Shown: positions 10,439 to 63,999 of the stretch, piece after piece
Numbering within the stretch: the stretch's first letter is position 1
How the letters are laid out: every line of letters begins with the position of its first letter
Made by a program: the position numbers and the translations under genes
Assembly: GCA_963971285.1 (NCBI GenBank)
Contig: OZ020256.1
Coordinates: 8,806,541-8,870,540, forward strand
Source of the DNA: Astropecten irregularis
Lineage: Eukaryota; Echinodermata; Asteroidea; Paxillosida; Astropectinidae
DNA length: 64,000 bases
Direction of reading: 5' to 3'
Notes under the pieces: model-generated
Seen by the model: the letters and a program-made list of their open reading frames with translations, nothing else
Databases searched by the model: none
Told to the model about the DNA's origin: nothing

Positions 10439-13400
10439 AAAAATCGCCAATCACAAGGCCCAAAACAGGCCACTCCAGGTGATGGCTAAAACGAGGAGAA
10501 AAGGGAACAAAGAAGAAATCATGGGGTAGAAAGATAACTATTGATGTTGCACTTAAATTGAGACAAATTGTAAGTGGAAGGGAAGCAGGATGCAGGTAGT
10601 GAATTCCACAGCAAGGCAGTACGCGGGAAGAAACTGGATGAGTATCCCCGAGTATTTGACTTGGGGACCACCACAGTGTATGAATGTGACTGAACAGAGA
10701 AACGTGTGGTGCGACCAAAGGTACGGTTGGGTGGAACAACCAGTGAGAGTCCATTGGAGCACCTACCAAAAAAGTATCTGTAAAAGAGGCTCAAAGAGGC
10801 TACAGAACGACGGAGAGACAGGGGTTCCAGAGTTGAAGCCAAGTCATCTCCAACTAGATTTGAAATACGTTGTTGAATTTTATCAAGCAGGGACAGACTG
10901 CAAGCTGGAGCACCAGCCCAAATATGACAGCAGTACTCCATGACAGGACGTATTGTGGATTTGTACAAATAGAGCAAAGCAGTTGGGGGAAGATATTGCC
11001 TTGCACGATACAAGCAGCCTACCCGCTGCGAAGCCCTTTTGGCAATGCTACGAATGTACTTATCCCAGGATAAGTTAGAGGTGAAATCAAGACCTAGAAG
11101 CCGGATGTCAGCAAGCTCCTGTAGTGGTATTGAATTCATCTCCAATGTAGAAAAGTGAGGAGATCTGGACCTGGATAAAGACAACAAATGAGTCTTCTTT
11201 TGATTGAATGTGACAAGCCAATCGTTACCCCAGTTAATGACATTCTCAAGGTCCTGGTTGAGAACAATACTGGCCTGTATACATGATGGAGCAGACAGGG
11301 GACCAGGGTAAGTAGTATACACTGTTGAGTCATCAGCATACATGGCTAACTGTGATGAGACAGAGTCGGGCAGATCATTAATATATAGAAGAAATAATGA
11401 TGGGCCCAGAACAGAGCCCTGGGGAACACCTGCATTAATACGATGAATGGAGGAGGAATAGCCCTCGAGCACCACAGAGAACTGACGTTCAATGAGAAAG
11501 CTAGAAATTAGATTTAACAGATTGCCAGAGATGCCATAAGACTTCAATTTATGGATGAGCCCTCTGTGCCAAACTTTGTCAAAGGCCTTTGATATGTCAA
11601 GGGCAACAAGCCTAGCTTCACCACGTCGATCTAAAGCTCTATTGATGTGTTCCGTTATCAGGGATATGATGTCTGCTGTTGACCGTGAATGACGGAAGCC
11701 ATACTGAACATCTGTCAGGAGCTCGTGTTCTTCAAGATAATCTATGAGTTGCTGATTAATCAGGCTTTCAAAAACCTTACTCATAATGGGAAGAAGGCTT
11801 ATGGGCCGATAGTTGGAGGGGTCAGACTTCTCACCCGAGCCCTTGAAAACAGGAACAACAGAGGCCAGCTTCCAATTAGATGGAAACACAGAATGTGTTA
11901 GGCAAATATTGTACAGTTTGGAGAGGATAGAGGAAAGTTCTGGTGAACACATCTTCAGTACAATTGCAGGGATTCGGTCAGGTCCTGAGGCTTTTGAGGT
12001 GTCAAGATGATTGATGACTTTAGCTACCATCTTAGGTGTGATGTTAATCCTAGATAAACTGCTGTCGACACGAGAAGGACAGTCGGGCAGGTTTCGGCCT
12101 TGGTCATCAAGTGTGGAGTTTGCTGCAAAACGATCAGCAAAAAGGTTGATTTTATCAGAGGGAGAGGTGAGGACTTCAGGCCCATTAAACAGAACAGGAA
12201 TAGTGGACTTGCTTCTATTAAGGACGCTATTTGCAATTCTCCAAAAATCTCTGGAGCCAAGACGTTGAGTTGAGATGGACTCCTGAACAGAATCTGCATA
12301 ATGACGTTTGGCGTTTTCCAATACCTTCTTGCAGTTGTTTCTAGCAAGGCGAAATTGATGGAGGGTCTCCCTTGATCCATCTCTATGAAATTGATGGAAA
12401 TAATGGTTTCGATGGCAGATAGCAGCAGCACATGCAGGAGTGAACCATGGCTGGGAGTGTGGTTGCACTTGGAAGGTACGGGAAGGTATAAAGAGATCCA
12501 TTCCAACCTGGATCCAATCCGTCACTTCATCAGCTGCCTCAGATGGACTTAGGCAAAATACTGAGTTCCAAGGGACATCACCAAGGAAAGAACGAAATCC
12601 ATCCCAATCAGCACTGTCGTACTGGAAAACAGTCCGATGATATGGATGTGAAGAAGTCGTTGGTTGGGCACAACTAACCTGGACCTCAATGTTGGCATGA
12701 TCAGAATTTCCTATCGGGGCTAGGATTGAGGACGTACAAGCGTTAGGATTTGAGCACAGAAACAGATCAAGAAGATACCTGTTATCAGTCACACGATCAG
12801 GGATACGCGTCGGAGCTGAGATGATCTGAGTAAGGTCCTGAGACAAAGCAAAATTGAAAGCACTAACACCGGAAGCATCTGTGCTGTGAGAGTGGACAAG
12901 CCATTCCTTGTGGTGAACATTGAAATCACCAAAAACCATGATCTCTGCAGTAGGATGACGAGAAAGCGCCAAGTCAATGCTGTTGGATATCGCACCAAAG
13001 ATAGCACTATTTTGTGATGATGGAGAGCGGTAGAGAAAATAAAGATATAAGGTGGAATGTAGAAGTGCAAGGCGAAAACACATGTATTCTTGTGTCACAT
13101 CCTCAAGCGTGATCTCACGGCCAAGAGGGAGGGTGTCCTTTGCAAAAACACAAAGACCATGACAAGGAGGAGCGTCAAGTCTATGTATGACATAACCAGG
13201 TACAGTCAATGAAGTAGACATAATACTGCTGTCTAGGCGAGACTCACATAAAGCAAGAAGGTCTGGGGAATTCAGCTGAAGGAAAGACTGAATCGCAGTG
13301 AAATTTCCCCTTGCCCCTCTTACATTGGCAAAACATAAATGTAGGGCTTTAAGTTTGTTGGTGAAAATATTTCTGATGTGCATGTGTGAAAGTCTAACGT

Positions 13401-13530
13401 CAACAATCGTTGCCAAGACTACACGGCCAGCGCAATCAATTAATGACCGTTTTCCTAGCTGCTTGTTTTTACTGATTATTTTACATGTATTTTCATTGAT
13501 TTTTTTTGGCTTAAGGTTTAATCCAAATTA
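10406..13530 (-). mobile_element. Nearly intact non-LTR retrotransposon with poly-A tail
   Basis: On the minus strand the unit comprises an open frame from about 13528 down to 10519, an 80-bp 3' untranslated part, and a pure 30-base poly-A tail (T run at 10406-10435 on the plus strand). No stop interrupts the coding part. The 5' end seems truncated: the frame is open upstream to a stop near 13530 but has no ATG, and no separate ORF1 is seen. A target duplication was not found by eye. Confidence 0.85.
10519..13416 (-). CDS. Endonuclease-reverse transcriptase (Jockey/CR1-group ORF2)
   Basis: The protein nicks target DNA and copies the element RNA into it. Residues 25-245 form an apurinic-type endonuclease with FANVRG, CESRLD (catalytic Glu), YRSPSS, GDFNVHHKEW at about 162 and NSDHANIEV at about 237. 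Residues 500-770 are the RT, with NYRPISLLP (535), YGFRHSRSTAD (572), ALDISKAFDKVWH (605), GVPQGSVLGP (663) and the catalytic YADD (693-696). A DKIQQRISNL and LWNSLP-bearing C-terminus follows, as usual for the group. All 965 codons are open. The first ATG is residue 12 and the frame also continues about 37 codons upstream without ATG, which suggests 5' truncation. All catalytic motifs are present, so it is probably a recent insertion. Clade within the Jockey/CR1 group is inference. Confidence 0.9.
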   Translation of the reverse strand: MATIVDVRLSHMHIRNIFTNKLKALHLCFANVRGARGNFTAIQSFLQLNSPDLLALCESRLDSSIMSTSLTVPGYVIHRLDAPPCHGLCVFAKDTLPLGREITLEDVTQEYMCFRLALLHSTLYLYFLYRSPSSQNSAIFGAISNSIDLALSRHPTAEIMVFGDFNVHHKEWLVHSHSTDASGVSAFNFALSQDLTQIISAPTRIPDRVTDNRYLLDLFLCSNPNACTSSILAPIGNSDHANIEVQVSCAQPTTSSHPYHRTVFQYDSADWDGFRSFLGDVPWNSVFCLSPSEAADEVTDWIQVGMDLFIPSRTFQVQPHSQPWFTPACAAAICHRNHYFHQFHRDGSRETLHQFRLARNNCKKVLENAKRHYADSVQESISTQRLGSRDFWRIANSVLNRSKSTIPVLFNGPEVLTSPSDKINLFADRFAANSTLDDQGRNLPDCPSRVDSSLSRINITPKMVAKVINHLDTSKASGPDRIPAIVLKMCSPELSSILSKLYNICLTHSVFPSNWKLASVVPVFKGSGEKSDPSNYRPISLLPIMSKVFESLINQQLIDYLEEHELLTDVQYGFRHSRSTADIISLITEHINRALDRRGEARLVALDISKAFDKVWHRGLIHKLKSYGISGNLLNLISSFLIERQFSVVLEGYSSSIHRINAGVPQGSVLGPSLFLLYINDLPDSVSSQLAMYADDSTVYTTYPGPLSAPSCIQASIVLNQDLENVINWGNDWLVTFNQKKTHLLSLSRSRSPHFSTLEMNSIPLQELADIRLLGLDFTSNLSWDKYIRSIAKRASQRVGCLYRARQYLPPTALLYLYKSTIRPVMEYCCHIWAGAPACSLSLLDKIQQRISNLVGDDLASTLEPLSLRRSVASLSLFYRYFFGRCSNGLSLVVPPNRTFGRTTRFSVQSHSYTVVVPKSNTRGYSSSFFPRTALLWNSLPASCFPSTYNLSQFKCNINSYLSTP

Positions 13531-24069: not shown

Positions 24070-24550
24070 TATAAGCTCTTATGACGTCATGATGACGTCA
24101 CAGTCAATTTATAAAAAGAATCATTTCCAAAGCATTTGTCATGCTTGAGATATGCTGCAAACAAAAAATCTGCCTTTTTGATGACGTCATGATGTCATCA
24201 TGTTTATTTTTCGGAGCAATGCACAACTACAAGATGCAGCAAAGCTTTTATAAAAAGAATCATTACCATAGCATTTGTCGTTTTTGAGATATGCTGCTTT
24301 TATTAAAATCAGCTTTTTGATAACGTCATATGACGCCGTTATGGTAAATTTCGTGGCAGCATGCACAACTACATGATATAACAAAGCTTTTGCAAAAAGA
24401 ATCATTACCGTAGCAATTACCGTTCTTGAGATATACTGCTAATCAAAAATCAGCTTTTTTGATGACTCCGTGATGACGTCACAGTACATTTTGAGGCAGC
24501 ATGCACAACTACATCATATAACAAGCCGTTCTCGCGATATGCTTCGAACA
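24070..24550. repeat. About 150-bp direct repeats with GACGTCA motifs, block 1
   Basis: Roughly three and a half units share AGAATCATTACCGTAGC, GAGATATGCTGC, TTTTTTGATGACGTCATGA and GCATGCACAACTACATGAT. The same unit occurs at 25975-26490. Each unit carries CRE-like TGACGTCA words. No gene is present. Confidence 0.8.
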
Positions 24551-25974: not shown

Positions 25975-26490
25975 GTGTGTGTCATGCATCTAAAGTTTCT
26001 AACAAAGCTTTTGTGAAAAGAATCATTACCATGTAGCTTTTGTCATTCTCAATGTATGCTGCAAACATAAATTATGCCTTTTGATGACGTCATAATGACG
26101 TCACAGTTAATTTCAAAACAGCATGCTAATCTACAGGGTCTAACAAAGCTTTTACAAAAAAAACCAATACTGTAGCACTTACCGTTCTCGAGATATACTG
26201 CTATAAACCAAAAATTACCTTTAAATTGTAAATTTCTGGGCAGCATGCACAACTACATGATGTAACAAAGCTTTTACAAAAAGAATCATTACCGTAGCAC
26301 TTACCGTTCTCGAGATATGCTGCGAACAAAAAATCAGCTTTTTTGATGACGTCATAATGACGTCACAATGCCGTCACAGTAAATTTCTAGACAGCATGCA
26401 CAACTACATGATATAACTAAACTTTTACAAAAAAAATCATTTCCGTAGCATTTGCCGTTCTCGAGATACGCTGCGAACAAAATTGACTAA
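25975..26490. repeat. About 150-bp direct repeats with GACGTCA motifs, block 2
   Basis: Same unit as at 24070-24550: AACAAAGCTTTTACAAAAA, CATTACCGTAGCACTTACCG, TTCTCGAGATATGCTGCG, then GATGACGTCATAATGACGTC. The two blocks bracket the 19-bp satellite. Confidence 0.8.
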
Positions 26491-49969: not shown

Positions 49970-51258
49970 CGTGACTCAAAACTTTTTTTACATCTTGCCA
50001 TAGATATTTGCATGTAAATCTTATCATTAAATACCAGCCCCAAATCTTAATCGAAATGCTATCGATGTAGGTTACGGAGTATTGTACATCATTTTGTCAA
50101 ATGACAATGTGATCATAAACACTGGAACTAATAATCCATGGGCTAAAATTAAGTTTTTTTTACGTTGAGATATGGTCACTTTTAAACCATATGTCTTAAT
50201 CATACGTTCCAACATAACTTTTATGTTCACATAATAGTTCCACCACGTAATGAGACCCCGAACACCTAGTGGTTGTTCACACAACCACAAGTCTAGTTAA
50301 TATCGTTATGTTATGTTATTGATATATGTTATATACTTTTGAAGAGTGCACCTTTAATTTAACGTCACGTAGCTTGGTCATGTTTTTGTCACCACATAAA
50401 GTGGTTTTATAAAACTATGTGTGGCTGTGTGCAATATAGATGCAAATGGGTAAACACTGCTATCTGACAACAAAGCACCCTGGCTTGGCCTAACGAATAA
50501 CAGTAATGTGAGCAGATGGTTTTGAATGTCGCCCTCTTTTGATTAAAACAAGCAACTGCGGTGGTGTTTATCAATCTAAATGCATTACAACTTCGGCTTG
50601 GTATGTGGTGTATGATTTATTCCTAAAAGGAACTCGGAGTTTGAAGAATAATCGACATGAACAACATGTGCCGAATTTCCTCACCAGTCTTTTGCTCATT
50701 AGCACCACCACAGATACTTGTTTTTTATAAGCAAAAGAGGGCACCATTCAAAACCGTGTGCTCGGATTACCGATTCATGCATTTTTGAAAACGGTCTAAT
50801 TATAGCTGTGCGTGTTCGGCTGTCTTGTCAAAAACAGCATTTACGCTGGCAACTATGATAAGGAAATGAAGGAGAATACGGCATATACAATGCAGGCAAA
50901 CAACCTTCCGCGCGCCTCGCATGAATGGTGTTTAACTCGTATGTTTTATTTTATGACCAATATTTTCACGTACAGAGCTCTGTACAAGTCCATGGGCTAA
51001 CGTGAGAAAGATTTTAAAAATCATAATGAGGAAAACGGCGGCCCTTTCCCATCCAGAGACGTTACTCTTATAGTTTGATTTGAATAAAACAATGGGTTTA
51101 TTCATATAGTGTATTCTCTCGTGTGTTTATTACCCGTGAACAAAACAGAGTGGGTTTTGTTTAATGGTGGGAATAAAATATCATCAACGCTAGTGTGTGA
51201 ACCAAAACAGGCGGTACCCAAGCAAGGGGGTTGGGTGGGGGTTGTATACCAGGGCATA
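49970..51258. other. Non-coding stretch downstream of the Penelope-like element
   Basis: The part next to 51258 probably belongs to the Penelope-like 3' region. The rest has no recognised gene. Short frames at 50539-50730 and 50812-51000 lack domains. Confidence 0.4.
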
Positions 51259-51301
51259 AGCGGGAATGCATTTTCGTCCGTTCACGGACTCATCAGCCGC
51301 T
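51259..51301 (-). ncRNA. Hammerhead ribozyme (type I, Penelope-associated)
   Basis: On the minus strand the order is AGCGG (stem I), CTGATGA, GTCCG-TGAA-CGGAC (stem II with tetraloop), GAAA, then AATGCATT (short palindromic stem III), C17 at 51264 as cleavage nucleotide, and CCGCT, which pairs with AGCGG over five positions. All conserved core nucleotides are present and U16.1 pairs with A15.1. A tiny palindromic stem III is the minimal form known from Penelope-like elements and retrozymes, which often act as dimers. It lies about 115 bp after the RT stop codon on the same strand. Confidence 0.93.
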
Positions 51302-51414
51302 AAAAGGGTATTGGTTTATGAGTTGCTGTGGGAACTCATGAGATTGGAAAAATGTGTGTACGTGGTGTACTCATTCAGATATAGATCCATGTGACATTTA
51401 CAACCAAAGGATGC

Positions 51415-53457
51415 TTACTGTTCATCGATAAGTGAAGTAAGGACATCAATTAGAACTTCGTCAATGTCAGCGGTGGAAGATTCGTCATCTTCCTGTGGGT
51501 TGACATTTTCAACAATGAAAGATGGGTCATCTCTCTGTGGGTTGAGTTTGGCTCTGATGAGTTCTTTGTGAACATTGTTGGCTTTCTTAAAGGCAATGAA
51601 CAGAGGTTTTGGAAAAATCCTCTGTAAAGATGGGTTGCCTGCGATAAGATGCCAGTGTTTCAAGAGCGCTCGCTTGATATCCGTGGGTTTCACATGGGGG
51701 TTGTAAGTGGTGGAAAAGACAAGAGGTAGTCCGTGGGTGGTTTTCACTTTTTGTTTGTGAATCAGTGAATTCCGTTGGGAGAAATCCAGTGTTTGCGTGG
51801 TTTGGTGGATTTCGGCTGGGGTGTAGCCTCTGTCCATTAGTTTATCCTTGAAACTGTGTACCTTGTTTATAAAATCGTCTTCATTGTTAGTGTTGCGGAT
51901 ATATCTAAGGATTTCTCCTTTGATGAATCCATGGAACACATGTTCAGGGTGGGATGAAGAGCGATCTAGATATTGATACGTTTCTGTGGGTTTGGTGAAT
52001 ACTTTAGTATCCAAGGTACCCGTATTTGAGAAACGTGGACCTTTAAAAATGGTAAGGTCCAGGTAGGTGATGGAAGTTTCAGATGCCTCAAAAGTAAATT
52101 TGAGGGTGGAATGTAATTGATTCAGATGGTGAACAAAATGGGTGAATGAATCCAAAGAGCCATTGTAGATGATAAGTATATCATCTCGGTAACGTGCCCA
52201 AAAAAGGATTTTGTCCGTGAGTGTTGAGATCTGTTTCTCAAAAACATGTAGTGTGATATCGCAAATTTCTGGACTAGCTACAGAACCCATGGCACATCCT
52301 ATCTTCTGTCGGAAGAATTGGCCTCCGAACTGGAAGAAATTATGTCCTAGAACAAGTTCTAGGAGTTGACGGATGTATGTGGATGGAGGTTTGGTGATAG
52401 CATAGTTGTGGTTGGAATTTTCATAGGCTTGGCATACCGATCCGATCGCTTCTGCTTGGTGGATATTGGTATACATACTGACAACATCAATGCTCGCAAT
52501 AAGTGAGTTTTGTGGGAAGTGTTTTTCTTCTAGTTTCCGCAAAATATCAGAAGTATCTCTGACATAGGTGGGTTGGGCGGTAACAATGGGAAGAAGGAAA
52601 TAATCCACAAATTCTGAAATCTTGGCCGTTGGGCTCGTACAACCGCTAATGATGGGTCTGCCGACAAATGGTTCACCTTGTGGAGGTGTTTTGTGTATTT
52701 TTGGTAGAAAATACATTGTCGGGCAGGATGTGGGTTGTGAGGTAGGATCAAGATAGGCGAAAGTGTGTTTGTCAATTGTGTGGTTGCAGAACATCTGTAC
52801 GAGGACATTATGGACCTTTTTTGTGGTTTCGATGGTCATGTCTCTGTTCCACGGTTCATAGTGGTGGGAACTGAGGTGTTTGAAACCAACTTTAAGGTAG
52901 TCTGTTCGGTTCATGATGCAAATACCACGGCCTTTATCATATGGCTTAATTACAACAGATGGGTTGTTTTTAAGTTTGCGAATGGCTGATAATTCAACTT
53001 GGTTCATGTTTGTGGGAGAATTTCTAAGTCTCAAGTGGGCTAGTTCCATCTTGGTGGCTTCCAAATAGTTCTCAAGAATATTATTCTGAGTGGTTTGGGG
53101 GAGCCAAGTAGATGGTGGTTTGAAAGGCCGCTGTTTGTGAGCTTTGTGTTGCATTAAGAATGCAATTCTCATACGTCTTTGATATTTATGGATATCATGA
53201 ATAAGTGACAAACGGGTTGGTTTGGGTGGTGTGGGAACAAATTTCAAACCTTTACCTAGTGCAATCTTCTCAGAGTCTGAGAGTGAAAGCGTGGATAGGT
53301 TGGTAATGAAACGTTCACTGCAATGGACCAAATTTTTCCGCTGTTCGGTGGAGGATATGTGTTTAAGATTTGATCTGTGGTGGGCAAATCTTATGTTTTT
53401 TCCTTTTTGTCTTTTCTTTTTATTGGAAAAGGTGGTGTTTGTGGTTTTCCTAGGCAT
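51415..53457 (-). CDS. Penelope-like reverse transcriptase (ORF2), intact
   Basis: The frame of 680 codons begins at ATG 53457 (MPRKTTNTTFS), after a short upstream extension without ATG. Numbering from that extension, a basic N-terminus is followed by ITNLSTLSLSDSEKIALGKG (57-75), VVIKPYDKGRGICIMNRTDY (173-192), PTMYFLPKIHK (251), GRPIISGCTSPTAKISEFVD (271), SLIASIDVVSMYTNI (first catalytic Asp, about 330), QKIGCAMGSVASP (389) and the catalytic RYRDDILIIYNG (427). FTFEASETSITYLDLTIFKG and LDRSSSHPEHVFHGFIKGE complete the thumb. This motif order is that of Penelope-like elements. No GIY-YIG endonuclease is seen at either end: the C-terminus is short and acidic (EDDESSTADIDEVLIDVLTS). No stop or frameshift interrupts it. 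Confidence 0.85.
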   Translation of the reverse strand: MPRKTTNTTFSNKKKRQKGKNIRFAHHRSNLKHISSTEQRKNLVHCSERFITNLSTLSLSDSEKIALGKGLKFVPTPPKPTRLSLIHDIHKYQRRMRIAFLMQHKAHKQRPFKPPSTWLPQTTQNNILENYLEATKMELAHLRLRNSPTNMNQVELSAIRKLKNNPSVVIKPYDKGRGICIMNRTDYLKVGFKHLSSHHYEPWNRDMTIETTKKVHNVLVQMFCNHTIDKHTFAYLDPTSQPTSCPTMYFLPKIHKTPPQGEPFVGRPIISGCTSPTAKISEFVDYFLLPIVTAQPTYVRDTSDILRKLEEKHFPQNSLIASIDVVSMYTNIHQAEAIGSVCQAYENSNHNYAITKPPSTYIRQLLELVLGHNFFQFGGQFFRQKIGCAMGSVASPEICDITLHVFEKQISTLTDKILFWARYRDDILIIYNGSLDSFTHFVHHLNQLHSTLKFTFEASETSITYLDLTIFKGPRFSNTGTLDTKVFTKPTETYQYLDRSSSHPEHVFHGFIKGEILRYIRNTNNEDDFINKVHSFKDKLMDRGYTPAEIHQTTQTLDFSQRNSLIHKQKVKTTHGLPLVFSTTYNPHVKPTDIKRALLKHWHLIAGNPSLQRIFPKPLFIAFKKANNVHKELIRAKLNPQRDDPSFIVENVNPQEDDESSTADIDEVLIDVLTSLIDEQ

Positions 53458-53498
53458 AATAACAACAGACAACTTTACACTCTTTTGTGAAGTCGTGT

Positions 53499-53513
53499 GG
53501 CTCTGAAAGAGCC
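53499..53513 (-). promoter_or_regulatory. Histone-mRNA-like 3' stem-loop between ORF1 and ORF2
   Basis: The minus strand has CCCAAAC, then GGCTCTTTCAGAGCC, then ACACGACTTCACAAAAGAG. The six-base stem GGCTCT/AGAGCC and flanking AAAC and ACAC match replication-dependent histone mRNA ends (canonical GGCTCTTTTCAGAGCC followed by ACCCA). The loop is one base shorter (TTC rather than TTTC). The downstream CACAAAAGAG resembles the purine-rich element bound by U7 snRNA. It sits in the 88-bp gap between the two ORFs. A role in processing is inference. Confidence 0.6.
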
Positions 53514-53545
53514 GTTTGGGTTGTTTGGTGGTGCCGGATGGTTTG

Positions 53546-54235
53546 CTAGTGCTTTCTCTTTCTCTTTACTCCTCTCACTGGCCGCTCTCGAAGAAAGTGG
53601 GTCAACAGCCTATTCCCGGTCTTGGAGTCTTCGGGGACCACCAGATGCCCGCGGATCTGCTCCTCCGCCTCCTTACGCTTTGCCACCAAGTTAGTATCAA
53701 TTTCTCGTCTCCAAGCTTCGTGCTGCTTAAGGCTGATTATGGTCAGCTGTTTGGCCGCACTGGTGAGAACCTTCTCCCAGGTGGTCCTGATTTCCTGACG
53801 GATCTCAAGACCTTTGGGAGGCGTGGGAAGGGGAAATTGGCACTTCAAAGAGTGCACTGGTTCCACCTTCTCCACCGCAGTTCTCAAATGGTGGAGGTTT
53901 CGATCTATTGATACCTTCTTGGCAACTAACGCTTGAAGGGGAAGGGCGAGTCCGCGGACAAACCGGTAGTCCTCGTCTGACAGGCGGTTTCGTTGGTGGC
54001 TGTTGATCTTGGGTTTCTTGGGTTTCTTGGCTGGCGGATGATCGTCTTCTGGTCCGGTCAGGATGGTCCCTTCTAGTAAGGTTTGGCTGAGTTTTCTGTC
54101 TAACTTGTGGGCCAATCCTCTGTAGAAAACTTCGTCTTCCGAGTCAGTTTCGGGAATGACAGGCTGGGCGCATTGGATAGGAGACGATGGTGGAGTAGTA
54201 GTTCCGTCATCAAGTGATGACGTCGTCGTGACGTA
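53546..54235 (-). CDS. ORF1 of the Penelope-like element, 5' truncated
   Basis: The frame is open from a stop near 54240 to 53546, about 230 codons, and has no in-frame ATG near its start, so its 5' end is probably lost. It reads QCAQPVIPETDSEDEVFY, then LAHKLDRKLSQTLLEGTIL, a lysine/proline tract AKKPKKPKINSHQRN, then VEPVHSLKCQFPLPTPPKGL, EIRQEIRTTWEKVLTSAAKQ, KQHEAWRREIDTNLVAKRKE and a basic tail VRGVKRKRKH. The long charged segment looks helical and the tail like a nuclear signal. No named domain is recognised. Same strand, 88 bp upstream of the RT ATG, which suggests an RNA-binding or packaging partner (inference). Confidence 0.65.
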   Translation of the reverse strand, partial: YVTTTSSLDDGTTTPPSSPIQCAQPVIPETDSEDEVFYRGLAHKLDRKLSQTLLEGTILTGPEDDHPPAKKPKKPKINSHQRNRLSDEDYRFVRGLALPLQALVAKKVSIDRNLHHLRTAVEKVEPVHSLKCQFPLPTPPKGLEIRQEIRTTWEKVLTSAAKQLTIISLKQHEAWRREIDTNLVAKRKEAEEQIRGHLVVPEDSKTGNRLLTHFLRERPVRGVKRKRKH

Positions 54236-54462
54236 ACTTCATTTTTACAATCTCCGACCTCTTTTTCACTAACCTACTAAATTTCAAGTCGATCGGCCAT
54301 TCCTTCTATGTATTATAAACATCGCAGTTTTTATGACGTCTTGATGACGTCACAGTATTTTAATGTGCTCAGTGTTCATCTATGCTGTATGCTCAAGAAT
54401 TATCCAAAAAATTCAAACATATCTTGTTTTGTATAAACTAGATATTGTTAAAAGAACTTTAA
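54236..54462. other. Spacer with GACGTCA words
   Basis: ATGACGTC and TGACGTCACAG words near 54210-54355 match the style of the 24-26 kb and 47 kb repeats. No gene. Confidence 0.4.
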
Positions 54463-55756: not shown

Positions 55757-55929
55757 TTTAATGACCCAAATTTTCAATAAATCATAAAAAATCAGAGGAT
55801 GATGTCATGATGACGTCATTGCAATTTTTTGATATAACACCTCCCAACTTAGATACATACCAAGTTTCAACTCAATCGGACTTAGGATTCGTTCATAATT
55901 GATATCTGAAGTTTGCCCCTTTAAAACAC

Positions 55930-56290
55930 TGTCACGTGACTCTTGATGACGTCATGATGAATGACGAAAAGTTTTGGGAGACAACTACCCTATATGGACT
56001 TCCTTCAGACCAAGTTTGGTTGAAATCGGCAGTTTAAAAGTAGCCAAAGTGCCACCTAGAAAAAGTCTATGGTAACTCAAATGAGAAGAAGAGGAAGGAA
56101 GAAGTAAAAAAAATGAACAGAACAAAAATAAAGGCTATTCACTTGCGCGAAAAAGCAAAAATAACAGAACAAACGCAATACCTTTTCCGAAAATCGGAAA
56201 AGCCAAAAAAATAGCAGAACAAAAACAAAGGCTTTTTGCTTGCGCAAAAAAGCAAAACAAAATCAGGACAAACAGTATAGCTTTTCCTCA
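55930..56290. repeat. Inverted copy of 45462-45800
   Basis: Reads TTGATGACGTCATGATGAAT, then CAACTACCCTATATGGACTTCC, then GCAATACCTTTTCCGAAAAT, i.e. the reverse of the series at 45462-45800. Confidence 0.75.
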
Positions 56291-60986: not shown

Positions 60987-62474
60987 CTAAACCCAGTTAG
61001 GTTTTCTGGTATGTCTCTTGGGACGACCCTTAGGTTTAGGAGTGTCAGTTTGTTCTTGTGTCCCTGTGGTAGGCATTTGGATTGGTGGTTTACTGGCCAT
61101 TGCCAGGTGTGATGCATTCCATGTTCGGCCATCCTCAAGCTGGAACGTGGATGGACCCTTGGATCGAGCGATGCGCTGTGGTGGTCCATAGCGATTTGAG
61201 CATTTGTGAACGTGTCGTGGATTCTTGACACGAACGTTTTGGAAACGAGGTTGTACGGCACCTCGCTTACTGTCCGCATACTGTTGGTATGTGTCCTGTG
61301 CATGCTCAACTCGCTGGCGGATATCAGCAGATTGATGATTTCCAGCTTCAGTAGGGCGAATGTTCAGCTTTGTAGTCATCCGTCGATTATGCAGGAGCTC
61401 AGACGGCGATTTGCCTGTAGTTGCATGTGGAGTTGCTCTGTATGCTGTAAGCAGATCCCTTACTGCAGTTTCCCAAGGAGTTTGCTGTTGGTTGGCAATT
61501 TGCAGTGTTTGCTTTAGAACGCGATTAAATCGCTCGACAAGGCCATTGGCCTGCGGATGGTAGAGCGAAGTGCGAATGTGCTTGATTCCTCTGGAACTCA
61601 AATATGCCTCAAACTCAGTAGAGACAAACTGGCTACCGTTGTCGGTTACGATCTCATTGGGTAGACCTTCCCTCGCGAAAAGAGAATCAAGCATGGAGCA
61701 AACGGACTGGGTCGTGGCATAATGGGAAAATGCCACCTCTGGCCACTTACTGTAGTAGTCCATAAGAACTATTGCGAACCTGCACTTCTGAGGGCCGTAG
61801 TCGAAAGGTCCACAAATGTCAATGGCAAGCTTTTGCCATGGGTTGTCAGGGAGTCGTACTGGTTGTAATGGAGGAGTACGGGTGAATGCTGTCTTGTCGC
61901 TAGTTTGGCAAGCAGCACAGTGACGAATTTGCTGCTCGATCATCCTGTCCATGCCAGGCCACCAGTAGCATTCACAAAGTCGCTGCTTGGTACGGACGAT
62001 ACCTTGATGTCCCTGATGAGCAATGGAGATGATCTCGGATTGGAGTGCTGCAGGCAGGACAAAACGATCGCCTCGCATGACACAATCATCAATGACTGAG
62101 AGCTCATGCTGAAGCACGAAGTATGGTTGGAGTTCAGGTGTCAGTTGGTTTTTAGTAGGCCAACCGGACACGATGTACTGGGACACCGACTTAAGAACTG
62201 CGTCGTTCTTAGTGGCGTTCTGGAGTTCAGTCTTAGTAACGGAAGAAGCGTCGATGAGCAGCGCAGAAATCCACTGGACAATAACTGCATCATCACTTTC
62301 CTCAGCTGTATGAGCCGTATTGGAAAGTGGAAGACGAGACAGAGCGTCAGCAACTCTGTTGTGTGCTCCATCCCGGAATTCAACGTCGTAGTTGAAGTTG
62401 AGCAAACGTGCTGCCCATCTGGCGATACGCATTGGCTTGTGACCTGTGCCGCGTGTAGATAGAAGTGTAGTCAA
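60987..62474 (-). CDS. Ty3/Gypsy pol, RNase H end and integrase
   Basis: The frame continues the pol polyprotein after a frameshift near 62560. It opens with the end of RNase H (RWAARLLNFNYDVEFRDG, VADALSRLPL). It then has the integrase HHCC zinc finger (AHQGHQGIVRTKQRL ... HCAACQ, about 150-195), the catalytic core with LAIDICGPFD (Asp, about 216), EIVTDNGSQFVS (Asp, about 278) and PQANGLVERFNR (Glu, about 314), and a basic tail ending KGRPKRHTRKPNWV. No chromodomain is seen. Every catalytic residue is kept. Confidence 0.9.
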   Translation of the reverse strand: MTTLLSTRGTGHKPMRIARWAARLLNFNYDVEFRDGAHNRVADALSRLPLSNTAHTAEESDDAVIVQWISALLIDASSVTKTELQNATKNDAVLKSVSQYIVSGWPTKNQLTPELQPYFVLQHELSVIDDCVMRGDRFVLPAALQSEIISIAHQGHQGIVRTKQRLCECYWWPGMDRMIEQQIRHCAACQTSDKTAFTRTPPLQPVRLPDNPWQKLAIDICGPFDYGPQKCRFAIVLMDYYSKWPEVAFSHYATTQSVCSMLDSLFAREGLPNEIVTDNGSQFVSTEFEAYLSSRGIKHIRTSLYHPQANGLVERFNRVLKQTLQIANQQQTPWETAVRDLLTAYRATPHATTGKSPSELLHNRRMTTKLNIRPTEAGNHQSADIRQRVEHAQDTYQQYADSKRGAVQPRFQNVRVKNPRHVHKCSNRYGPPQRIARSKGPSTFQLEDGRTWNASHLAMASKPPIQMPTTGTQEQTDTPKPKGRPKRHTRKPNWV

Positions 62475-62532
62475 AGCTTGATGGTCAGTTCGAAGTGTAA
62501 ATCGACGACCCCATAAGTACTTGTACCACTTT

Positions 62533-63999
62533 TCACATGCCCAAACGCATGCTAGGGCTTCTTTTTTCGCTCACGGAGTATTTGCGTTCAGCAGCTGTCA
62601 GTGTGCGTGAAGCGAAAGCGATGGGGCGTTCGATGCTGTCCTTGACTTGTGCGAGCACAGCTCCGATGCCATAAGCTGATGCATCTGTAGAAACGATCGT
62701 GGGAAGATCGGGGTCAAACAGCGCCAGTGTAGTAGCGTTGGAGATGTGCTGTTTGAGCGATTCAAAGCATGTCTGTGCTTCCTCAGTCCAAACGTATGGA
62801 GTATCCTTGCGGAGTAGTGCACGGAGTGGCTCAACGACCGTAGCGTAGTTTGGTACGAATTGTGCGTAGTATGAAGCAAGTCCCATGAAGGATCGGAGTT
62901 CTGTGGGATCAGTAGGTTTCGGAGCGTTGCGAAGGGCCTCGACGTGTGTAGGATCCGGTGTGAGACCATTGGCTGAAATTGTATGTCCGAGGAAGCGGAG
63001 CGATGTCATACTGAAGTGACACTTGTCGTAGTTAAGTGTCACGCCCAACTCTGTCAGGCGCTTCAGCGTCGCATGGAGATTTGCGTCATGGTCTTTCTGA
63101 TCACGGCCGGATATGACCACATCATCGAGGTAGCACTGTACACCTTGGAGTCCGCTAAGTGCACATGACATGAGTTTTTGGAAGGCGGAGGGTGCGGAGG
63201 CCAATCCAAAACAGACGCGCTTGAAGCGAAACAAGCCGACGTGTGTGATGAAGGCAGTCAGGTCGCGGGAATCCTCATGTAGAAGCAGTTGGTGGTAAGC
63301 AGAATTCATGTCCAGGGAGCTAAACACAGTAGCACTGCGAAGCTCTCCTAGTAGCTCTTGGATGTTGGGAAGCGGGTACTTGTCAACAATGACTGCTTTG
63401 TTAACAGCCCGCAAGTCCACACACAGTCTCACTCCTCCGGATTTCTTGTAGGCAACTACCAGTGGTGACACCCATTCACTGGCATCAATACGCTCGATTA
63501 TGTCTGCATCCTCGAGGCGTGTCAATTCATTTGCCACTGCATCACGGACTGAGAATGGCAAATTTCTACGTTTCTGTTGTACTGGAGGAACAGACTGTGC
63601 AACCTTTACCTTATGCACATAGTTCTTAGCAAGTCCAACTTGACCACTGAAGAGATCTGGGTACTGCTTTCGCACATCCGGGGAGCTGGTTGGAGGCGGA
63701 GATTGCGAAGTGGTGTCATTCACGAGCATTACTTTTCCAGCTGTAATAGTAATGCCAAGGTTGCGGATTAAGTCCAGTCCCATGATCGGAATTCCGGATT
63801 GTACTACGAAGATGTGCGCTTGAACACTACGCTCAGGATTGCTGGAAAGACGAACAGTGGTATGGAATGTACCCAGAACTGGAATCTGTTCGTGCAGGTA
63901 AGTTTTCAGTTTGACTGATGTATGCTGCAGAGCTTCTTGTGCGAAGAACTTTGTGAATGTAGCTGCAGGAATTATGGAAACTGCTGCACCAGTATCCAC
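62533..63999 (-). CDS. Ty3/Gypsy pol, protease, reverse transcriptase and RNase H (partial, runs off the window)
   Basis: The visible frame starts inside the aspartic protease (MDTGAAVSIIPA, active-site DTG) at the window edge, so gag and the protease start lie beyond 64000. Then come SVRDAVANELTRLEDADIIE, SPLVVAYKKSGGVRLCVDLR, FSSLDMNSAYHQ (about 225), FKRVCFGLASAPSAFQKLM, the catalytic QCYLDDVVISG (YLDD, 290-293), LRFLGHTIS, and RNase H from IVSTDASAYGIGAVLAQ (about 442) to AERKYSVSEK. There the frame leaves the normal path at an extra base in an A run near 62560-62567. The rest of the polyprotein continues in another frame at 62474-60987. Confidence 0.9.
   Translation of the reverse strand: MDTGAAVSIIPAATFTKFFAQEALQHTSVKLKTYLHEQIPVLGTFHTTVRLSSNPERSVQAHIFVVQSGIPIMGLDLIRNLGITITAGKVMLVNDTTSQSPPPTSSPDVRKQYPDLFSGQVGLAKNYVHKVKVAQSVPPVQQKRRNLPFSVRDAVANELTRLEDADIIERIDASEWVSPLVVAYKKSGGVRLCVDLRAVNKAVIVDKYPLPNIQELLGELRSATVFSSLDMNSAYHQLLLHEDSRDLTAFITHVGLFRFKRVCFGLASAPSAFQKLMSCALSGLQGVQCYLDDVVISGRDQKDHDANLHATLKRLTELGVTLNYDKCHFSMTSLRFLGHTISANGLTPDPTHVEALRNAPKPTDPTELRSFMGLASYYAQFVPNYATVVEPLRALLRKDTPYVWTEEAQTCFESLKQHISNATTLALFDPDLPTIVSTDASAYGIGAVLAQVKDSIERPIAFASRTLTAAERKYSVSEKRSPSMRLGM

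Follow-up and report, generated by a model that had tools for sequence, protein, structure and literature searches.

The window analysed here, a 64,000-nucleotide stretch of the Astropecten irregularis genome (contig OZ020256.1, positions 8,806,541 to 8,870,540), carries on its minus strand one copy of a Penelope-like element (PLE). In the direction of transcription, it consists of a first open reading frame (ORF1), an 88-bp gap (53545-53458) containing a histone-type hairpin, a second frame (ORF2) encoding a reverse transcriptase (RT), and a hammerhead ribozyme. This arrangement, with an RT devoid of a GIY-YIG domain, had been proposed in an initial annotation made from the sequence alone, and the ORF map and the Pfam and Rfam scans bore it out. 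The limits given there, 54235 and 51259, had to be revised by comparison with other copies in the 475.7-Mb assembly containing the window, which placed the element, a 5'-truncated copy, at 51025..54205. Similarity to seven other 5' regions starts at 54205 in five cases and at 54201 or 54188 in the others, so about 30 bp of the annotated start are flanking DNA, and similarity to four copies at the other end (L056, L057, L061 and L062) stops at 51027-51024.

ORF1 (53546..54205, minus strand; identified by protein search and copy comparison) is truncated and ends in a basic C-terminus, KRKRKH-stop. Its frame is open from stop to stop (54238-53546), and it has no ATG, the window copy beginning two codons inside ORF1. 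An intact start, MSGTTTPP or similar, was found in four other copies (L051, L052, L053 and L055), in which the common sequence begins 7-8 nt before the ATG; L051 and L055 share 44 nt. ORF1 is also incomplete in some other copies: L029 is truncated immediately after the stop codon of ORF1, L038 starts within ORF1, and L032 has an ORF1 deletion. No Pfam family matched ORF1 at cut-off, and a search of a 5.8-billion-protein database (426 candidates scored) yielded a single relative, P0122, with 69% identity over 95% of the length. The AlphaFold2 model is of low confidence (pLDDT 59), with predicted helices at residues 87-122 and 147-197. Among the regions compared for a pseudo-LTR (long terminal repeat) or tandem arrangement, no full tandem was seen. 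An inverted hammerhead was present near L050, and in L055 (C11:20576650-20577860) the beginning of ORF1 is directly preceded by an ORF1-like fragment, which points to a partial tandem copy.

ORF2 (51415..53457, minus strand) runs from an ATG at 53457 to a stop at 51415 and encodes a 680-aa RT with an acidic C-terminal tail. In the Pfam scan it gave a match to RVT_1 (35.2 bits, E 1.3e-8) and none to a GIY-YIG family. Among named RT proteins, the closest belongs to the sea star Patiria miniata, with 67% identity over 80% in the search and, in the tree, 76% over 459 columns. The best 120 of 433 RT relatives were aligned with the window sequence, and a midpoint-rooted FastTree phylogeny was inferred from 119 of the 121 rows, two sparsely filled rows being left out. 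The window RT fell within a group of 97 rows, together with rows from Patiria, Amphiura, Pinctada, Mytilus and Saccostrea. This group, in which many rows are partial, contained no PF01541-marked row and no GIY-YIG-like C-terminal tail; the PF01541-marked rows, nine in all, were confined to the other group, of 22 rows. The RT is thus assigned to the Penelope type from sequence relationships, its relatives including GIY-YIG-marked proteins, in a tree built without reference Penelope sequences. Scans of viral contigs and genome contigs with the RT and with the alignment of its relatives returned no relatives.

The hammerhead is a minimal type I motif (51259..51301, minus strand), composed of stem I (AGCGG/CCGCT), the core CTGATGA, stem II (GTCCG-TGAA-CGGAC), GAA and stem III (AAT-GC-ATT), with cleavage predicted after C51264 (UUC). 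The Rfam hammerhead match was weak (19.3 bits against a cut-off of 52, E 0.37), and the assignment comes from the core and three stems, read by eye, and from the alignment of copies. All 11 aligned rows contained the motif, with an unchanged core in nine; core changes were found in L056 and L058 and stem changes in L050 and L061. Two AATAAA sequences, the first a possible poly(A) signal, lie downstream of it on the same strand (51126..51131 and 51097..51102). The occurrence of minimal hammerheads in PLEs is already described in passages of an earlier study (PMC7229834).

The gap between the two frames holds the elements of a histone-type 3' end. The ORF1 stop is followed by an A/C-rich spacer of 32 nt (53514..53545), by the stem-loop GGCTCT-TTC-AGAGCC (53499..53513), and, beginning 9 nt past the stem, by a sequence resembling a histone downstream element, CACAAAAGAG (53480..53489), all on the minus strand; the element thus reads TAG, 32 nt, hairpin, then ACACGACTTCACAAAAGAG. 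The Rfam family Histone3 (RF00032) matched the window hairpin with 25.5 bits (cut-off 34; E 5.6e-4 for 5 kb and 4227 families), and a scan of the whole window at curated cut-offs reported one tRNA only, the hairpin remaining below threshold. A covariance model of hairpin plus downstream element trained on host sequences gave this site 42.2 bits (E 6.7e-7), and the runner-up in the window 13.7 bits (E 2). The chance expectation of the exact 15-mer with up to two mismatches is 0.12 per window, and the exact 17-base hairpin pattern did not occur in the viral contigs. The initial annotation had called the hairpin histone-like; its presence was upheld by Rfam and by the host-trained model, but the window copy scores below the Histone3 cut-off and departs from the canonical form in its loop. 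A frameshift signal at the hairpin was ruled out, because ORF1 ends 32 nt before it.

Other copies of the element were sought by an RT search of the same genome, which scored 65 of 547 first-look candidates, yielded 70 matches and by its design covered RT-bearing copies, with ORF1-only copies outside its scope. The same family was taken to comprise sequences with 71% or more identity to the query RT, giving at least 32 rows at 18 loci, the window included. Twelve of the other 17 loci had a match starting at ORF2 residue 13 or earlier, and all twelve were fetched. It had been considered that other copies might lack the hairpin; this was not so, since it was intact in 11 of these 12, and hence in 12 of the 13 same-family copies reaching the ORF2 N-terminus. 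In the remaining copy, L040, the 5' half of the hairpin was deleted and the 3' half kept. The loop was TTC in the window, L029, L030, L031, L034, L035 and L038, TTTC in L032, L037 and L039, and CTTC in L033 and L036. The Histone3 cut-off was passed by four of the 13 copies (L039, 39.4 bits; L033 and L036, 35.8; L032, 35.4). The scores below it were 32.6 for L037, 25.5 for six copies (five loci and the window) and 23.7 for L034, with L040 not listed. The host model, which was built without the element, matched 12 of the 13 copies with E-values of 2.8e-5 or better and missed L040.

The stem was the least variable part of the region, with 71 of 72 pair cells being Watson-Crick pairs in the majority form and a single G-U pair in L037. 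Non-majority cells amounted to 1/144 in the stem, 3/84 in the 7 columns upstream, 22/468 in the 39 columns downstream and 36/648 at the start of ORF2. The downstream element varied at 5/120 cells, L037 ending in CACGAAAAAA. Its distance of 9 nt from the stem was kept in TTC, TTTC and CTTC copies alike, and the distance from the hairpin end to the ORF2 ATG was 41 nt in 11 of 12 copies (44 nt in L034). In a small midpoint-rooted tree built from the sequence that follows the hairpin, TTTC copies occurred to either side of the root, and all seven copies with TTC clustered together (support 86). The canonical TTTC was therefore probably the ancestral loop, and the 3-nt loop found in the window's lineage, the youngest, is probably derived. 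Upstream of six copies from two other Penelope-like families (five from a second family, 46-47% identical, and one from a third, 33% identical), no Histone3 match was found up to E 0.5 in 0.5-0.9 kb. The signal therefore seems to be limited to the window's family and not to belong to the whole Penelope-like class.

The initial annotation had also suggested a comparison with the histone ends of the species itself, and here the resemblance to a host H1 gene proved close in the stem, the stop-codon spacing, the downstream element and the spacing of the latter. In the genome search with RF00032, in which the best 75 of 91728 first-look candidates were scored, so that it is not a census, and for which the control gave a sub-threshold match in one genome of 14, that of Lactococcus lactis, all 75 scored matches were above cut-off. 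Fifty-two of them lay in an array on contig C18 (L009 and L010; G000:C18:15.5-15.62 Mb) and 23 were dispersed. The array has a unit of about 1.5 kb, with canonical histone hairpins and linker-histone-like genes of 207-209 aa recognised by eye; 6 kb of L009 contain four hairpins and two listed genes. The H1 gene end reads TAG, 28 nt, GGCTCTTTTCAGAGCC, then ACATATATTCAAAAAAGAG. The distance from stop codon to hairpin was thus 32 nt in the window element against 28 nt in H1, and 27 and 30 nt in two pogo-like transposase genes discussed below. The downstream element starts 9 nt past the stem in the window element, in H1 and at both pogo-like ends, and mostly 10 nt past it in the dispersed repeats. 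H1 and both pogo-like ends have CAAAAAAGAG at this position, and the 10-mer CACAAAAGAG occurs identically in 11 of 14 aligned dispersed host repeats. These ends (H1, the two pogo-like genes and 14 dispersed repeats chosen from those fetched, 17 in total, with the element excluded) made up the host covariance model. Mouse U7 pairs with the AAAGAG core of the downstream element, according to passages of PMC7026596, and this core is contained in the downstream element of the window; histone mRNAs of Caenorhabditis elegans end 3-6 nt past the hairpin, according to part of PMC1924863.

The two transposase genes (L015, contig C14, 4526, plus strand; L018, contig C11, 4503, minus strand) end with a histone stem-loop of canonical form and a downstream element, at 27 and 30 nt from the stop, respectively. 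Matches to DDE_1 (62.5 bits) and to the Brinker DNA-binding domain (25.4 bits) were obtained with pieces of L018, on the basis of which we take these genes to be pogo-like, and the alignment of L015 with L018 consists of four pieces at 82-87%. The other 21 of the 23 dispersed sites share the hairpin-plus-downstream core of a short dispersed repeat. Among 19 sites in 16 fetched loci, the shared stretches measured about 40 to 275 bp, except for a near-identical pair (L021/L022). The hairpin core was the best-kept part of these repeats, a conservation that is biased by the choice of sites by hairpin score. The repeat was observed at L001-L008, L011-L014, L016, L017 and L019-L028 as a canonical stem-loop plus ACCCCATACTCACAAAAGAG, with inverted pairs in L019 and L023. 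The upstream motif of many of its copies, CTGAAGACGGCCAG..CTGGCCGAAAC, is similar to GAGAAAGATCCTGCTAGGATCGAAAC of L046, the copy from the third Penelope-like family, which we regard as a lead only. The window also contains a non-LTR retrotransposon ORF of 1002 open codons with endonuclease and RT (10519-13527, minus strand), part of the pol of an LTR retrotransposon, including RNase H and integrase domains (60987-62570, minus strand), and short repeats rich in TGACGTCA (24079-24524, 26079-26378, 54328-54357 and 55799-55954), one of which lies just upstream of the element.

The elements for histone-type 3' end formation are thus found in order, near the host spacing, on the coding strand and behind ORF1. 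We propose, with a probability of roughly 0.6, that an endonuclease-less Penelope-like family acquired a complete histone-type 3'-end signal behind ORF1, so that the ORF1 mRNA would be finished by SLBP and U7, with read-through giving ORF2 and the genomic RNA. On the nascent element RNA, SLBP would bind the hairpin and the U7 small nuclear ribonucleoprotein the downstream element, and a cut a few nucleotides past the stem would leave a short non-polyadenylated ORF1 mRNA. Its expression would be coupled to the cell cycle like that of histones, in S phase or the early embryo. RNA escaping the cut would run through ORF2, to be ended by the hammerhead or by later poly(A) signals, and would serve as ORF2 message and template. 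The signal would thereby act as a switch, yielding much ORF1 and little ORF2, and the 3-nt loop of the youngest lineage, which may weaken SLBP binding, may shift the balance towards read-through.

Several observations weigh against this proposal. The canonical histone hairpin has a loop of 4 nt, TTTC in the host, and the loop is 3 nt (TTC) in the window and in six of the 12 other copies; this derived form could reflect decay or tuning. Compensatory changes in the stem were sought among the copies, as the initial annotation had advised, and none was found, so that histone-type processing, as proposed there, is favoured by the persistence of the signal in other copies and by the host-like downstream element and spacing, but not by covariation. 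Fisher tests comparing the stem with its neighbours gave p-values of 0.008-0.03 (0.024 for the 39 downstream columns, 0.008 for the ORF2 start), which treat related copies as independent. A signal between the two frames would moreover sever ORF2 from most transcripts unless processing were partial. Finally, a genome search with the Rfam model detected no U7 small nuclear RNA, a result of little weight, the control having been equally silent.

The departure of the loop in two lineages (TTC and CTTC), leaving the youngest copies non-canonical, together with the variation in the downstream element, would also fit a histone-type end that was captured once with the end of ORF1 and is now carried as a passenger, the 3-nt loop being a sign of decay. 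We consider this unlikely, since the stem is intact in 12 of 13 copies while the adjoining bases vary more, and the downstream element has stayed at the same distance from the stem whichever of the three loops is present. Less likely again is that SLBP and U7 are bound for another purpose, such as to promote the translation of RNA that lacks poly(A) or to deliver element RNA to histone locus bodies. The hammerhead would likewise leave an RNA without poly(A), and the near-constant distance from the hairpin to the ORF2 ATG would suit such a role. However, both the spacing behind the ORF1 stop and the existence of a downstream element correspond to the requirements of 3' cleavage, and no histone H3 or H4 match was obtained within the window, in a search that had no positive control. 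As for a chance hairpin, or one that is coding sequence of an N-terminally extended ORF2, the window does have an ORF2 frame that stays open across the hairpin, extending stop to stop from 53565. This explanation is very improbable and was rejected on the copy comparison, the Histone3 scores and the host model: loops of both 3 and 4 nt occur among the copies, so that no single upstream frame is kept, four copies exceed the Histone3 cut-off, and the host model finds the window site with the E-value given above. A search with the ORF2 N-terminal fragment for proteins spanning the gap returned four hits, none of them with a translated gap as judged by eye.

If the proposed acquisition of a 3'-end signal by this Penelope-like family is correct, mobile elements would have a novel means of coupling their expression to DNA replication, and transposons would evade poly(A)-based control via the histone pathway. 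The hairpins with TTTC, CTTC and TTC loops would provide a natural set of variants for tests of SLBP specificity, and the balance between two ORFs without poly(A) in PLEs would become testable. A broader and more tentative idea, which we hold to be possible, is that unrelated elements (Penelope-like, pogo-like and the dispersed repeat) each took on a histone 3'-end signal and thereby gained messages without poly(A) that are timed to S phase or early cleavage, the period in which histone mRNA prevails; within the retroelement, the signal would additionally act with the hammerhead as a switch between ORF1 and full-length RNA. Among the matches listed in a search of open-licence papers, no description of a histone stem-loop in Penelope-like or other transposable elements was found.

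Canonical PLEs have one ORF with a C-terminal GIY-YIG domain, and hammerheads and tandem or partial-tandem copies have been described for PLEs, as set out in parts of PMC11167929. The window element is like them in its hammerhead and in its RT, whose relatives are PLE-type proteins that include GIY-YIG-marked ones, and unlike them in that it lacks an endonuclease and has two ORFs separated by a histone-type signal. The Athena PLEs of bdelloid rotifers are endonuclease-deficient, according to a portion of PMC3846280. The window element shares with Athena the lack of an endonuclease. We know of no histone-type signal in Athena elements. The 3' end of replication-dependent histone mRNAs (RF00032) is matched in the stem, its flanks, the spacer behind the stop, and the downstream element and its spacing, all near those of host H1; however, the signal of the element does not stand behind a histone gene, is followed by another ORF and has a 3-nt loop in the youngest lineage. 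In the pogo-like transposon (L015 and L018), hairpin and downstream element likewise lie closely behind an ORF stop, but this is a DNA transposon, in which the signal ends the transposase gene.

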